Shown: positions 46,118 to 53,922 of the stretch, piece by piece | Layout of the letters: each line of letters begins with the position of its first letter | How positions within the stretch are numbered: position 1 is the first letter of the stretch | From: Myroides marinus | GTDB lineage: Bacteria > Bacteroidota > Bacteroidia > Flavobacteriales > Flavobacteriaceae | NCBI RefSeq assembly: GCF_900109075.1 | Contig: NZ_FNYS01000001.1 | Span: 248,001 to 312,000, forward strand | Direction: 5' to 3' | DNA: 64,000 bases | Made by a program: the position numbers and the translations under genes | Notes under the pieces: model-generated | Told to the model about the DNA's origin: nothing | Database searches by the model: none | Seen by the model: the letters and a program-made list of their open reading frames with translations, nothing else

Positions 46118-47965
<1,848 letters not shown>

Positions 47966-47977
47966 TACTTGAGTATT

Positions 47978-48610
47978 ATGGTGGTTATAACGTCTCCTAC
48001 TCCCATGGTAAATGAAGCAAGCCTTATCAACAAAATGTTTGAAAAAGGCTTGTCTTTACTTCATGTCCGCAAACCAAATATGGATATAAATGAGCTACGA
48101 TTATGGGTAAAAAACATTGATAATTGCTATCATCAAAGTCTAGTTATTCACATACCAAACATAGTTATCAACAATAAAGAATGGTTTTTTGAACAATATA
48201 TAGCACTTATCAACAATTTAAACAGTACTTATACACACTTATCAACAGATAATTGTTCATTTGTTAATAACTACAAGTATAAACTACCTAAGTTATCAAC
48301 ATCTGTTCACTGTATAACTGAAGTTAATAAGTTATCAACAACTATAGAAAGAGTGTTTATTAGTCCCATCTATCCGAGTATCTCTAAAAAAGGATATTCC
48401 TCATCAATAAATTGGACAGAAGAGATACGACTGAGAACAAACTTTAATACAACCTTAGTTGCATTAGGAGGTATTACACCTTATCGAATAAAAGAACTCA
48501 AGACAATGGGGTTTGATGACTATGCTTTACTAGGAACTATATGGGAAGCAGACCAACCTTTAAAACAATTTGAATTATGTCAACATTACGACCAATTGCA
48601 TTGGCAATAG
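47978..48610 (+). CDS. ThiE/TenI-like protein, divergent paralog
   Basis: A 210-residue TIM-barrel protein of the thiamin-phosphate synthase/TenI superfamily. Recognisable parts are LLHVRKP near residue 31, STSVH, FISPIYPSISKKGYSS (the phosphate-side SPIFPTxSK motif of ThiE) and VALGGITPYRIKEL. The central part, where ThiE has DGVHLGQ-type metal and pyrophosphate residues, is poorly conserved, so a role as TenI-like thiazole tautomerase is at least as likely as synthase. The ATG at 47978 was chosen over an upstream TTG. Its middle part contains eight DnaA-box-like nonamers. Confidence 0.8.
   Translation: MVVITSPTPMVNEASLINKMFEKGLSLLHVRKPNMDINELRLWVKNIDNCYHQSLVIHIPNIVINNKEWFFEQYIALINNLNSTYTHLSTDNCSFVNNYKYKLPKLSTSVHCITEVNKLSTTIERVFISPIYPSISKKGYSSSINWTEEIRLRTNFNTTLVALGGITPYRIKELKTMGFDDYALLGTIWEADQPLKQFELCQHYDQLHWQ
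48024..48340 (+). repeat. Cluster of eight DnaA-box-like nonamers
   Basis: TTATCAACA occurs at 48024, 48165, 48207, 48239, 48293 and 48332; TTATTCACA at 48144 and TTATACACA at 48229. The last two fit the TTATNCACA DnaA consensus and the six identical copies differ from TTATCCACA by one base. All are on the plus strand. They fall in all three frames of the host gene, so the protein sequence alone does not account for them. The spacings 21, 42, 22 and 10 bp are near whole helical turns. Confidence 0.65.
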
Positions 48611-49332
48611 CAGGTTTTGACCCTACAAGTGGTGCTGGGGTTTTAGCTGATGTTAGAACATTTGAACAAGCTAACGTATATCCGATGGCTGTACTGTCAG
48701 CTAATACAATACAAACTGAAGATAGTTTTAGTAGTGTCCAATGGGAAGATAATAGGTATTTGATAAAACAATTAGAAACATTACTAAAGACTTATACTAT
48801 CTCAGCTATTAAGATAGGTATTATCAAAGACCTAGATGTCTTACAACATTGTATCACTTTAATCAAGAAACTATCTCCTACGACAGTCATAGTATGGGAC
48901 CCTGTATTGCGTTCCTCTAGTGGATTTGATTTTACTGAATTAGATACCTCTGAATTACTAACAACAGTACTAAAACAGATAGACCTTATCACTCCAAATT
49001 ATTTAGAGATACATCAGCTAATAACGAATAAAGATGATGCTATCCAGAAAGCTCAAACCTTGAGTCTATACTGTGATGTACTACTAAAAGGAGGACATAA
49101 TCCTAACGCTTTAGGCTTTGACTATTATATCCATAAAGAACATATACAAACTATAGCTCCAACAACACTTTCAGATTACCCAAAACACGGTTCTGGCTGT
49201 GTTCTTTCTTCAGTTATTACAGCTAATATCGCAAAAGGATATACCGTATTAGAAGCCATACAAACTGCTAAACTATATATCGAGTCATTCCTCAATTCTA
49301 ACCACACATTACTTGGATATCATGCTAAATAA
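48577..49332 (+). CDS. thiD: ThiD, HMP/HMP-P kinase
   Basis: A 251-residue ribokinase-like enzyme that phosphorylates hydroxymethylpyrimidine (phosphate). Motifs: ALAIAGFDPTSGAGVLADVRTF at the N terminus, IKIGI, WDPVLRSSSG near residue 108, LLKGGHN and the anion-hole HGSGCVLSS near residue 206 with the catalytic region. The start overlaps the preceding gene by 34 bp. Confidence 0.95.
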   Translation: MSTLRPIALAIAGFDPTSGAGVLADVRTFEQANVYPMAVLSANTIQTEDSFSSVQWEDNRYLIKQLETLLKTYTISAIKIGIIKDLDVLQHCITLIKKLSPTTVIVWDPVLRSSSGFDFTELDTSELLTTVLKQIDLITPNYLEIHQLITNKDDAIQKAQTLSLYCDVLLKGGHNPNALGFDYYIHKEHIQTIAPTTLSDYPKHGSGCVLSSVITANIAKGYTVLEAIQTAKLYIESFLNSNHTLLGYHAK

Positions 49333-49942
49333 AATACAATACATCAGTCATGGTGATACTCCACAAGAACAGTTGTATCACATCGAATCTGTTCTTGCTG
49401 CAGGACAGCAGTGGGTACAATACAGATTTAAAAACACAACTAGTACAACGCTTTGGCAAACTGCAGAACAAGTAAAAAAACTTTGTCAACAATATAATGC
49501 CACCCTAATTATTAATGATTATGTAGACTTGGCTAAAGCTATAGATGCGGATGGTGTACACTTAGGACTAACAGATTTGAGCATCACTCAGGCTAGAGAA
49601 TATCTACCTAACAAAATCATAGGTGGTACAGCTAATACATTTGAAGATATATTGCTCAGACATTACGAAGGTTGTGATTATATAGGCCTTGGACCATATC
49701 AATTTACATCTACCAAACAACAACTAAGTCCTATACTAGGTTTAAGTGGATATAGTAAGTTAATCAAGCAAATGAGAGACACAGATATAAACATTCCCAT
49801 TATAGCTATAGGAGGAATACAACTAGAGGATGTACGCGCCTTAAAACAAACAGGAATACATGGTATAGCCATATCAGGATTACTTCAACACAGTCAAGAC
49901 AAACAAACACTAATACAACAACTAAACAGCATACTAATATGA
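49322..49942 (+). CDS. thiE: ThiE, thiamin-phosphate synthase
   Basis: A 206-residue TIM barrel that joins HMP-PP and thiazole phosphate. QYRFKN near residue 34 (QxRxK motif), [35 protein letters not shown] and the [15 protein letters not shown] and AIGGI motifs are all present, so this copy, not the upstream paralog, is the probable catalyst. The ATG at 49322 overlaps thiD by 11 bp; an upstream TTG is less likely. Confidence 0.93.
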
Positions 49943-50715
49943 ACATACAACCACTCAAAATAGCAGACAAGACTTTCCAATCTAGACTGTTCTTAGGCAC
50001 AGGTAAATATGGCTCTAACCTAGAGATGGAACAGGCAACACTAGCTTCTGAAAGTGAGTTAGTCACTGTAGCCCTTAAGCGCATTGATACCTCAACAGAT
50101 ACAGATGCTATACTTTCTCATCTACACCATCCGCATATTAATCTATTGCCTAATACTTCTGGAGCTAGAAATGCTAAGGAAGCGATCTTTGCTGCTCAGT
50201 TAGCTAGAGAGGCATTAGAAACTAACTGGCTGAAGCTTGAGATACACCCTGACCCTAAATACCTTCTACCTGATCCTATAGAAACACTAAAGGCTACAGA
50301 AGAATTAGCTAAACTCGATTTCATTATACTTCCATATATACACGCTGATCCCGTATTGTGCAAAAGACTAGAAGATGTAGGTACAGCTGCTGTTATGCCC
50401 TTAGGAGCACCTATAGGTACTAATAAAGGCCTAAAAACAATAGATTTCTTAGAAATAATAATTGAGAACAGTAAAGTACCTGTTATTGTAGATGCAGGTA
50501 TAGGAGCCCCATCTGATGCAGCTAGAGCTATGGAAATAGGTGCTGATGCTGTGCTAGTGAACACAGCAATAGCAGTAGCAGGTAATCCTGTACAAATGGC
50601 TGAAGCTTTTAAACTTGCTGTACAGGCAGGTAGACTTGCCTATGAAGCCAAACTACCTCCTATTGCAAGTCATGCTAACGCCTCAAGTCCTTTAACCGCA
50701 TTTTTATTAGAATAA
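49939..50715 (+). CDS. thiG: ThiG, thiazole synthase
   Basis: A 258-residue TIM-barrel enzyme that forms thiazole phosphate from DXP, dehydroglycine and ThiS thiocarboxylate. The N-terminal [11 protein letters not shown], the [14 protein letters not shown] loop, the [15 protein letters not shown] segment with the Schiff-base Lys, and the [28 protein letters not shown] tail are diagnostic. It overlaps thiE by 4 bp. Confidence 0.97.
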
Positions 50716-50717
50716 CT

Positions 50718-51827
50718 ATGTCTTTTATCCATACTTATGAACAATACAATTGGGAAGAAGTCAAAAGAACAATATATAACACAACTTCTTTTCAAGTAGA
50801 ACAAAGTCTTCAACAACCCAAAAAAACACTTACAGATTTTTTACATCTCATCTCTCCTGCTGCTTCACCATACTTAGAGCAGATGGCACAGCTAAGCCAA
50901 CAACTTACTCAAAAGAGATTTGGTAAAACCATATCACTTTACGCTCCTATGTATTTAAGCAATGAGTGTAATAATATCTGCACTTATTGCGGGTTTAGTT
51001 TAGACAACAACATTAGGAGAAAAACACTGACTCCAAAAGAAATAGAACAAGAAGTATCAGTAATTAAAAGTCAAGGATATGATCACATACTATTAGTCAC
51101 AGGTGAAGCTAATCACATCGTTAATATCAACTACTTCAAACAGAGTATTCAACAGATACAACAGTCTTTCTCTACCATATCTATAGAAGTACAGCCGTTA
51201 AAACAAGACGAATATGAACAATTAGCAGAACTAGGTGTCTATGCGGTATTAGTGTATCAAGAAACCTATCACAAAGAAGTATACAAACAATATCACCCTA
51301 AAGGGAAGAAATCTAACTTCGAATATAGACTTGACACTCCTGATAGAATAGGCAGAGCAGGTATACATAAGATAGGACTCGGAGTACTGCTAGGATTAGA
51401 AGATTGGCGAGTAGACAGTTTCTTTAATGCACTACACATCGATTATTTACAAAAGACCTATTGGCAAACCAAATACTCTGTTTCTTTTCCACGATTAAGG
51501 CCTGCCGAAGGTGTGATAGAACCGAACTTCATTATGGAAGATAAAGATCTAATACAACTTATGTGTGCCTATAGAATATGGAATGAAGACTTAGAAATAT
51601 CGATATCAACTAGAGAAAGTGAAATACTGAGAAATAATGTCTTCAAACTAGGAGCTACTACGATGAGCGCAGGTTCTAAGACTAATCCAGGTGGATATAG
51701 TGTTGATGAAGATTCTTTAGAACAATTTGAAATCTGTGATAACAGAACTACAGCCGAAATATATTCTTTAATCAAAAAGGCAGGTTATGAACCAGTATGG
51801 AAAGACTGGGATAAAGCATATCAATAA
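50718..51827 (+). CDS. thiH: ThiH, tyrosine lyase (radical SAM)
   Basis: A 369-residue radical SAM enzyme that cleaves tyrosine to give dehydroglycine for ThiG, an oxygen-sensitive alternative to ThiO. The cluster motif is CNNICTYCGF (CX3CX2C) near residue 84, followed by EVQPL and the C-terminal tail with SAGSKTNPGGYS. Gap to thiG is 2 bp. Confidence 0.96.
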   Translation: MSFIHTYEQYNWEEVKRTIYNTTSFQVEQSLQQPKKTLTDFLHLISPAASPYLEQMAQLSQQLTQKRFGKTISLYAPMYLSNECNNICTYCGFSLDNNIRRKTLTPKEIEQEVSVIKSQGYDHILLVTGEANHIVNINYFKQSIQQIQQSFSTISIEVQPLKQDEYEQLAELGVYAVLVYQETYHKEVYKQYHPKGKKSNFEYRLDTPDRIGRAGIHKIGLGVLLGLEDWRVDSFFNALHIDYLQKTYWQTKYSVSFPRLRPAEGVIEPNFIMEDKDLIQLMCAYRIWNEDLEISISTRESEILRNNVFKLGATTMSAGSKTNPGGYSVDEDSLEQFEICDNRTTAEIYSLIKKAGYEPVWKDWDKAYQ

Positions 51828-51842
51828 CTAAAACATTACAAT

Positions 51843-52553
51843 ATGGATACTACTGATTTTTTAAGGTACAGCAGACAAATGAATCTAACAGAAGTAGGTG
51901 TAGAAGGTCAAATGAAGATAAAACAAGCTAAAGTATTAGTAATAGGTGCTGGAGGATTAGGTTCTCCAGTACTTACATACTTATCGAGTTGTGGCGTGGG
52001 CACACTTGCAGTAGTTGACTTTGATACAATAGAACAACACAATCTACATCGTCAAATATTATTTACTGAAGAAGATATCAATCAAAATAAAACAGCAGTT
52101 GCCTATCAGCGCATCAAACAGATTAATCCACATATAAACTTCACTGTCTATAATCAAAAACTCAATACAAACAATGCTGAACAGATATTAAGACATTATG
52201 ATATTATCGTAGATGGAAGTGATAATTTTTCCACACGTTATCTAGTCAACGATACATGTGTATTACTAAACAAAACACTAGTATCTGGAACAATATTCGG
52301 ATTCGAAGGGCAGATTAGTGTATTTAACCACAAAGGCTCTCCTAATCTACGTAACCTATTTCCTGAACCACCTGCAGTAGAAGATGTTCCTAACTGTAAC
52401 CTAAACGGAGTATTAGGTACTTTTCCAGGAATTATAGGTACTATTGTGGCACACGAAACATTAAAAGCAATACTAGAATTACCCACACTAAGTGGCCAAT
52501 TACTAATACTTAATACATTAACTTGGGAAATAAATAAACTAAGATATACCTAA
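51843..52553 (+). CDS. thiF: ThiF/MoeB/HesA-family adenylyltransferase
   Basis: A 236-residue E1-like enzyme that adenylates the ThiS C terminus. The ATP site is VLVIGAGGLGSPVLTYLSSCGVGTLAVVDFDTIE, then NLHRQILF, the catalytic Asp in IIVDGSDNFSTRYLVND. The two zinc-binding CxxC pairs seen in many relatives seem absent, so it resembles the short ThiF form. Last gene of the operon, ending 1 bp from the convergent aat. Confidence 0.92.
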   Translation: MDTTDFLRYSRQMNLTEVGVEGQMKIKQAKVLVIGAGGLGSPVLTYLSSCGVGTLAVVDFDTIEQHNLHRQILFTEEDINQNKTAVAYQRIKQINPHINFTVYNQKLNTNNAEQILRHYDIIVDGSDNFSTRYLVNDTCVLLNKTLVSGTIFGFEGQISVFNHKGSPNLRNLFPEPPAVEDVPNCNLNGVLGTFPGIIGTIVAHETLKAILELPTLSGQLLILNTLTWEINKLRYT

Positions 52554-52554
52554 C

Positions 52555-53199
52555 TTACTTTTTAGGAAGATACTCCATATACACCTCTCTAGGTATTTCG
52601 TAAGCTCCTAAAGAGCTTAGGTGATCATTATACACCTGACAATCTAGAAGTGAGTATTTTTTCTTTTGTAGATACTCACATAGATAAATAAAAGCAACTT
52701 TACTAGCATTTGGTACAAAGGAGAACATACTCTCTCCGCAGAATACTGGTTTCATATCTACGCCATATAAGCCACCTACAAGTTCTCCTTCTAGCCATAC
52801 TTCAACAGACTGAGCTAAACCTAGTCTATGTAGATTACAATATGCATCTATCATATCATCTGTAATCCATGTTCCCAATTGTCCATCGCGTTTAGCATTC
52901 TGACAATTGCTAATCACATCAGCAAAGCAAGTATTGAAAGTCACTGTAAACTGATCTTTCTTCAGTACATTACGCATACTTTTAGAAATATGCACTTCAT
53001 GTGGCTCTAAAACCATACGCATACTAGGAGACCACCAAGTAATAGGTTCTCCATCTTCAAACCAAGGAAATATACCTGACTTATAAGCTAGTATTAATCT
53101 ATTCGCAGATAGATCACCACCTAATGCTAATATACCTGACTCGTGGGTGTTCTCCACAGCCGGAAAATATAAATAGTTACTATCTAAAATTGATATCAT
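52555..53199 (-). CDS. aat: Leucyl/phenylalanyl-tRNA-protein transferase
   Basis: A 214-residue enzyme that adds Leu or Phe to N-terminal Arg/Lys of proteins as an N-degron tag. Motifs include FPAVENTHESGILALGGDLSANRLILAYKSGIFPW and WWSPSMRMVLEP near the N terminus, GTWITDDMIDAYCNLHRLGLAQSVEVW, and the GGLYGVDMKPVFCGESMFS segment. It is downstream of the DUF3127 gene after a terminator. Its 3' end abuts thiF on the other strand. Confidence 0.95.
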   Translation of the reverse strand: MISILDSNYLYFPAVENTHESGILALGGDLSANRLILAYKSGIFPWFEDGEPITWWSPSMRMVLEPHEVHISKSMRNVLKKDQFTVTFNTCFADVISNCQNAKRDGQLGTWITDDMIDAYCNLHRLGLAQSVEVWLEGELVGGLYGVDMKPVFCGESMFSFVPNASKVAFIYLCEYLQKKKYSLLDCQVYNDHLSSLGAYEIPREVYMEYLPKK

Positions 53200-53204
53200 A
53201 ATAC

Positions 53205-53237
53205 TAAAAAAAAGTCCCTAAGAATACTCCTAGGGAC
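53205..53237 (-). terminator. Intrinsic terminator after the DUF3127 gene
   Basis: On the minus strand GTCCCTA and TAGGGAC pair across a 10-nt loop and are followed by eight T residues, just before the aat start. Confidence 0.85.
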
Positions 53238-53253
53238 AGTTAAAAGAATATTT

Positions 53254-53922
53254 TTAGAATGGTAGATCATCGTGATCTTCCTCCATATAGCTAGAAGCTG
53301 GAGGAAACTGTTGTCCCATATTACTTTGTCCTTGGTTAAAACCTTGTTGGTTTTGGTTAAACCCGCCTTGTTGTTGTGCTTGGTTATTTTGAGCAAAACC
53401 TTGTTGTTGATTAAACTGTTGGTTTTGGTTAAATCCTCCTGCTTGTTGACCTTGATTATTTTGAGCGAAACCTTGTTGTTGATTTTGATTAAATCCACCT
53501 TGTTGTTGCGCTTGGTTATTTTGAGCAAAACCTTGTTGTTGGTTAGACTGTTGTTGCATACCAGCATTACCATATTGAGACTGCATATTATCTTGTTGTC
53601 CCATGTAAGGTTGTTGGTTTTGTCCCATATTACCACCTTGTTGAGCAGGCATCATATGTTCTATTCTCCACCCTTGAATTGTATTAAAGTATCTCATTTC
53701 TCCCTGTGGACTTTGCCACTCTCTTCCTCTCAAATTAATAGAAACTCTAACTTGCTCACCTACTTGATAAGAGTCTAATAAGTTCACTTTATCTTGAGTA
53801 AACTCAATCATAATATGTTGAGGATATTGCTCTTCAGTAGTTACTACTACTTCTCTTTTTCTAAATGATGAACTAATATCTTGTATGTGTCCAATTAGTT
53901 TGATTCTTCCTGTAACTTCCAT
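53254..53922 (-). CDS. DUF3127 protein with Q/N-rich linker and SSB-like acidic tip
   Basis: A 222-residue cytoplasmic protein. Residues 1-95 are the DUF3127 domain, a small beta-rich module (GRIKLIGHIQDISSSFRKREVVV, then VNLLDSYQVGEQVRVSINLRGREW) that suggests an OB-type fold. Residues about 96-205 are low complexity, Gln/Asn/Gly/Phe-rich, with three tandem copies of a roughly 20-residue unit QGFAQNNQAQQQGGFNQ. The last residues are EEDHDDLPF, matching the acidic C-terminal tip of single-stranded DNA-binding proteins. The design is that of SSB, although the family is uncharacterised. Terminated before aat. Confidence 0.85.
   Translation of the reverse strand: MEVTGRIKLIGHIQDISSSFRKREVVVTTEEQYPQHIMIEFTQDKVNLLDSYQVGEQVRVSINLRGREWQSPQGEMRYFNTIQGWRIEHMMPAQQGGNMGQNQQPYMGQQDNMQSQYGNAGMQQQSNQQQGFAQNNQAQQQGGFNQNQQQGFAQNNQGQQAGGFNQNQQFNQQQGFAQNNQAQQQGGFNQNQQGFNQGQSNMGQQFPPASSYMEEDHDDLPF

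Follow-up and report, generated by a model that had tools for sequence, protein, structure and literature searches.

Do bacteria of the phylum Bacteroidota contain a second protein of the single-stranded DNA-binding (SSB) type in addition to the canonical SSB? The question is raised by a gene in Myroides marinus, located on the minus strand at positions 53254-53922 of the 64,000 nucleotide stretch of DNA analyzed here (referred to as the window; contig NZ_FNYS01000001.1, positions 248,001 to 312,000). The gene codes for a DUF3127 protein of 222 amino acids. We argue that this is probably a second, divergent SSB-like protein, with an OB domain that would bind single-stranded DNA (ssDNA), a linker and a tip for the docking of partners, which would work beside SSB in cells and replace it in some phages.

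Domain organization of the DUF3127 protein

The gene was delineated from its open reading frame (ORF) and from matches to Pfam and PHROGs. Residues 2-88 match DUF3127 (PF11325) with an E-value of 4.8e-30 and 104 bits, as compared to a cut-off of 27, over the entire profile (1-85 of 85), and residues 1-97 match PHROG 4932, "single strand DNA binding protein", with an E-value of 2.4e-36, a label that reflects annotation rather than an assay. The 222 amino acid protein had no match to the canonical SSB family PF00436 in Pfam, nor to any family in NCBIfam, at E <= 1. Likewise, three other genes but not the DUF3127 gene were matched when the M. marinus genome was searched for PF00436. The closest named relative, among the best 80 of 581 relatives (75 distinct proteins), which by this choice are close relatives, is a protein of Myroides sp. 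N17-2 with 92% identity across the domain.

Three parts were distinguished, all encoded on the minus strand: an SSB/PriB-like OB-fold domain (residues 1-95, positions 53638-53922), as predicted from a structural model, Foldseek, VIA-align and hhalign; a low-complexity linker rich in Q, N and G (residues 96-213, positions 53284-53637), as seen from composition and repeats; and an SSB-type acidic C-terminal tip, EEDHDDLPF (residues 214-222, positions 53257-53283), as identified by translation, pattern scans and comparison with relatives. The product ends in MEEDHDDLPF. We read two overlapping ORFs, at 53196-53636 (minus strand) and 53272-53778 (plus strand), as probable by-products of the repeat in the linker. 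A terminator-like hairpin with a T-run was located by a hairpin scan between the DUF3127 gene and aat (53214-53237, minus strand), a statistically weak signal, with one such hairpin in the region and 0.9 expected from shuffled sequences. The plus strand at 46151-52553 contains a run of ORFs, convergent with the aat and DUF3127 genes, which we take by eye to resemble a thiamine synthesis operon.

Predicted fold of the N-terminal domain

The domain was modelled from an alignment (A6) of the window protein with 90 relatives. Residues 1-95 were predicted with a mean pLDDT of 96.1 and with strands ordered as in an OB fold, the strands being located at residues 2-10, 21-28, 36-42, 57-70 and 76-89, and a helix at residues 43-51 between strands 3 and 4. 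A preliminary description, made from the sequence alone, had noted a small beta-rich domain at the N-terminus and had named an OB fold of residues 1-95 as the check on its likeness to SSB. The five predicted strands and the single helix agree with the former, and the prediction of a fold of the SSB/PriB type, with a pLDDT of 96, agrees with the latter.

A comparison with solved chains in Foldseek yielded 132 PDB matches at E <= 0.001, and the 50 listed were all SSBs, with identities of about 10-20% in the structure alignments of the DUF3127 model to SSBs. Rescoring of the Foldseek matches with VIA-align 2 gave Z-scores of 10.5-11.7 overall, with SSB and PriB tied. The top match was to the Salinibacter SSB (Z 11.7, rmsd 2.7, 90 residues), and PriB, Rim1 and mitochondrial SSB scored similarly. 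Since PriB scores as highly as SSB, the fold alone cannot separate the coating of ssDNA from a role in the primosome.

Similarity to SSB in sequence is faint. A match to an SSB chain was obtained with phmmer (E 0.023), and two profile searches recovered SSBs among other chains at E-values of 0.055 to 1 and an SSB at 0.16, respectively. In hhalign, the family profile aligned collinearly to Bacteroidota SSBs with a probability of 68% (E 4.8e-5), such that the motif R-E-W..G..R-Y is paired with R-x-W..G..R of SSB; with a profile built from alignment A1 the probability was just 8%. Given the faint sequence similarity and the matching predicted fold, the DUF3127 protein is placed outside PF00436 as an SSB-like protein, which shares with SSB its fold, as predicted, and an R-x-W..G..R segment in collinear position. 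Aromatic residues are found at positions 20, 33, 69, 78, 79 and 85 in 94-100% of 400 sequences, a conservation that suits base stacking but is not in itself proof of contact with ssDNA.

Conservation of the acidic C-terminal tip

The preliminary description had also proposed that the DDLPF ending should recur in relatives, and a survey of C-termini showed that it does. An acidic stretch followed by a terminal Pro-Phe was identified in 106 of 109 chromosomal DUF3127 genes (108 distinct proteins, representing 106 of the 171 genomes with DUF3127; a non-random set consisting of the 30 best-scoring genes and then mostly one per genus, from which the duplicate loci L148 and L149, the frameshifted gene of genome G077 (L166 and L170) and L167, which is truncated at the end of a contig, were excluded). 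Two of the three exceptions are without Pro-Phe and one ends in QDQPF. Among the 80 close named relatives, 79 end in DDLPF, and the exception (L226) may be due to a frame error. The 79 tips are encoded by 20 different nucleotide strings, which indicates that the amino acids are the conserved level.

As a control, none of 650 other ORFs of at least 150 amino acids (from the named loci and the window, and longer than a typical DUF3127 protein) ends in Pro-Phe. In the 4.16 Mb genome of M. marinus, D-D-L-P-F-stop occurs in only two places, the DUF3127 gene and one SSB gene, as compared to no matches to the reversed pattern. The wider pattern D-[DN]-[LIVMF]-P-F-stop was found in six places: the DUF3127 gene, two SSB genes, the gene for DnaB, a frame of 28 residues that is not a gene, and one non-stop match. 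The tip of the DUF3127 protein is thus more than chance.

The three PF00436 proteins of M. marinus (L083, L084 and L085) comprise an SSB with the tip DNLPF, encoded after a MutY-like gene, an SSB with the tip DDLPF that adjoins an integrase-like gene (both neighbors named by eye), and a form of 111 amino acids without the tip. The 30 best-scoring SSBs in the search of the phylum all end in DDLPF.

A linker expanded in Myroides and Paenimyroides

The linker consists of 37% Q, 17% N and 16% G and is devoid of K and R, and its DNA is tandemly repeated at positions 53344-53544. The Q/N-rich linker that had been ascribed to the SSB layout is thus present in the 222 amino acid protein but is not a trait of the family, in which the median length of the chromosomal members is only 123 amino acids (n=109), the second longest having 147. 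The lengths of the 80 named relatives also refute such a linker as a family-defining trait: lengths of 158-223 amino acids are confined to Paenimyroides and most Myroides, while most other relatives have about 125 amino acids and the Myroides guanonis protein has 127. Two viral members (L002 and L045), of 165-166 amino acids, also have Q- and N-rich linkers. The Q/N/G linker appears to have expanded recently, at the level of the genus. In E. coli SSB, the disordered linker has reportedly been tied to condensation (PMC12143593, PMC11947617), and one may speculate, by analogy, that the Myroides linker has a similar effect.

Distribution and gene neighborhood in cells

Of the 296 genomes of the phylum, 171 were found to encode DUF3127, representing 70 of 139 genera. 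Within the class to which the window belongs, the gene is present in 72 of 73 genomes sampled (by row count). It was also found in the control genome, Bacteroides ihuae. A single match was obtained in 167 of the 171 genomes, and one of the other four contains a frameshifted gene that was counted twice. This broken gene (L166/L170, G077:C4:116703-116967) may be an assembly error.

Canonical SSB was detected in 293 of the 296 genomes. Two of the three genomes with no SSB match (G024, G136 and G220) carry DUF3127, and the absence of SSB from the three assemblies, of 50-210 contigs, may well be due to a gap. DUF3127 as a replacement of SSB in cells was ruled out by the presence of SSB in 293 of 296 genomes, and in cells DUF3127 is thus an addition. 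This fits the suggestion in the preliminary description of a second SSB-like factor, although its novelty is only partial, since PHROG 4932 and several phage records in RefSeq already bear the SSB name.

A gene for Aat is located near the DUF3127 gene in 74 of the 80 named loci and a flavin reductase gene in 75, as compared to 20 and 21, respectively, of 78 loci from other genomes. Elsewhere, smaller groups of loci share other neighbors; in 10 loci, for example, the gene is accompanied by an ORF that by eye resembles alaS. No replication or repair genes were indicated among the shared chromosomal neighbors. The conserved gene order in the Flavobacteriales is more like that of an old housekeeping gene.

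DUF3127 proteins in phages

Relatives were found in 115 phage records, of which 104 are from Flavobacterium, Polaribacter or Cellulophaga phages. No PF00436 match was obtained in 50 DUF3127-bearing IMG/VR contigs of at least 31 kb, which may be incomplete. Among 18 isolate phages, picked for carrying either DUF3127 or SSB, 12 have only DUF3127, six have only SSB and none has both. One IMG/VR contig (L025) represents the same phage as the isolate phi18:3, which is therefore counted in both sets. The reverse search, which recovered DUF3127 in none of 50 SSB-bearing IMG/VR contigs, was given no weight, as the hosts of these contigs may lie outside the Bacteroidota. Phages of this kind with canonical SSB are not rare, as 80 Flavobacterium phage records have a match to it, and the genus Ficleduovirus is mixed, with DUF3127 in FL-1 and SSB in FCL-2 and FCV-1. 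In the phages examined, DUF3127 appears to take the place of SSB.

The gene order in a Nonlabens phage, with Erf, an exonuclease and DUF3127, mirrors that of RecT, an exonuclease and SSB in a Leeuwenhoekiella phage. Erf or RecT was annotated near DUF3127 in six of the 12 isolates and was absent from the stretch examined in the other six, several of which encode a NinG-like or RusA-like nuclease, a primase or a helicase there.

The mutual exclusion in phages and the tip bear on an alternative with the same predicted fold, namely that DUF3127 is an accessory of the primosome or of replication restart like PriB (primosomal replication protein N), which as an OB protein would bind both ssDNA and helicase loaders and would not be a general coat. 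It would be consistent with the Z-scores of 10.8-11.4 to PriB chains, tied with those to SSB, and with the finding that DUF3127 does not replace SSB in cells. PriB, however, consists of the OB domain and is not known to have an SSB tail, whereas DUF3127 has both a linker and an SSB tip, and its exclusion of canonical SSB from the examined phages is as expected for a replacement, not for an accessory. We therefore consider a PriB-like role unlikely.

The tip is less strictly kept in viruses. It was identified in 150 of 210 viral members (119 of 172 distinct proteins), and the full acidic Pro-Phe tip is missing in 60 (53 of 172 distinct). No protein recurs from one of the three scans to another, and L409, with no stop within the stretch, was excluded from the count. 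Half of these 60 members (30) have a length of 83-96 amino acids, which is barely more than the domain. Some short viral proteins (L009, L014, L017, L046 and similar loci) are without the linker and still end in Phe.

In a FastTree phylogeny of 194 sequences (83 from hosts and 111 from phages), the host or phage label switches at least 26 times, which suggests repeated exchange of DUF3127 between hosts and phages, as judged from a poorly supported tree of a domain of about 95 residues. The intermixing would also be expected if the host gene were a domesticated phage SSB that serves as a recombination or anti-phage factor, competing with the SSB of phages or mobile elements for the partners of the tip. 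We find this quite improbable, as the tree is built on only about 95 residues, and the presence in 72 of 73 genomes of the class together with the Flavobacteriales gene order have the appearance of housekeeping. It is very improbable that DUF3127 is an RNA- or ribosome-associated OB protein with a Pro-Phe tip that is coincidental or meant for another partner, as might be thought from the weak similarity to IF3 (E 0.12 and E 0.063) and from shared chromosomal neighbors with no DNA-repair context, given that the IF3 matches are sub-threshold and span about 30-40 residues, that the 50 Foldseek matches listed are SSBs, and that phage copies are located near recombination or replication genes.

Pro-Phe ends in DnaB

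The DnaB protein of M. marinus (named by eye; L546, G000:C29:35441-36958) has a low-complexity tail that ends in DDDVPF. We examined 70 DnaB-like genes (L547-L616; the 30 best-scoring and 40 chosen, from 145 genomes with a match), of which 60 end in Pro-Phe, seven more in Phe and three in neither, with none of the 650 control ORFs ending in Pro-Phe. Such ends occur in genomes with and without DUF3127, and the acidity preceding Pro-Phe varies among the DnaB tails, all of which are from this phylum. In two genomes (G006 and G001, family f12), the DUF3127 protein (L155 and L158) has an acidic end without Pro-Phe, and DnaB retains Pro-Phe in both.

The DnaB tails suggest that SSB-like tips are used more widely in the phylum. 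Tentatively, and with somewhat less than even confidence, we propose that the Bacteroidota have an expanded SSB-tip code, in which SSB, DUF3127 and DnaB may compete for or share docking pockets, and into which phages may enter through SSB or DUF3127. A Pro-Phe tail on DnaB would extend the biology of the SSB tip to several proteins of the replication fork.

Relation to known proteins and proposed function

Like E. coli SSB and the M. marinus SSB encoded next to the MutY-like gene, the DUF3127 protein has a (predicted) OB fold, a linker and an acidic Pro-Phe tip. It differs from canonical SSB by having no match to PF00436, by a QYP motif of its own and by its coexistence with SSB in cells. PHROG 4932 is the same family by profile, but its phage proteins were named by annotation, and some consist of the domain only, without linker and tip. 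The SSB gp25 of Pantoea phage AAS23 is reported to match both an SSB domain and DUF3127, with E. coli SSB as the best HHpred match (PMC8004638), but Pantoea is not a member of the Bacteroidota. The SSB label of phage copies and a link between DUF3127 and a phage SSB, the latter from this paper, are thus already known. A study of the Flavobacterium psychrophilum SSB mentions an "additional gene" with no function assigned and with similarity to an ssDNA-binding domain (PMC3991886), which may be DUF3127. In the open-licence PMC literature searched, we found no mention of PF11325 by name, no biochemical data on DUF3127 proteins, and no report that the chromosomal DUF3127 protein is a conserved second factor of the SSB type, that its tip is conserved or that DUF3127 and SSB exclude each other in phages.

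The predicted fold, the architecture and the conservation of the DUF3127 protein all speak for the SSB-like reading, and from them we infer the binding of ssDNA and of partners, as well as an oligomeric state. The N-terminal OB domain would bind ssDNA through its conserved aromatic residues, and a flexible linker would bear the Asp-Asp-Leu-Pro-Phe tip, which would dock into the pockets for canonical SSB tips on replication, recombination and repair proteins. The chromosomal protein would act beside the housekeeping SSB, the one that adjoins the MutY-like gene, most likely in recombination or in the repair of gaps and ends. Some phages of the Bacteroidota carry DUF3127 in place of canonical SSB, often within a recombination or replication region.

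If this is right, a domain of unknown function in Pfam, DUF3127, would gain an identity as an ssDNA-binding domain, and many members of a large phylum, including the Flavobacteriaceae and also Bacteroides, would have a second tip-bearing ssDNA-binding protein. It could then be tested directly why two SSB-like proteins with a tip are needed in one cell, and the phages would provide a natural exchange of one type of SSB for another, highly diverged one.
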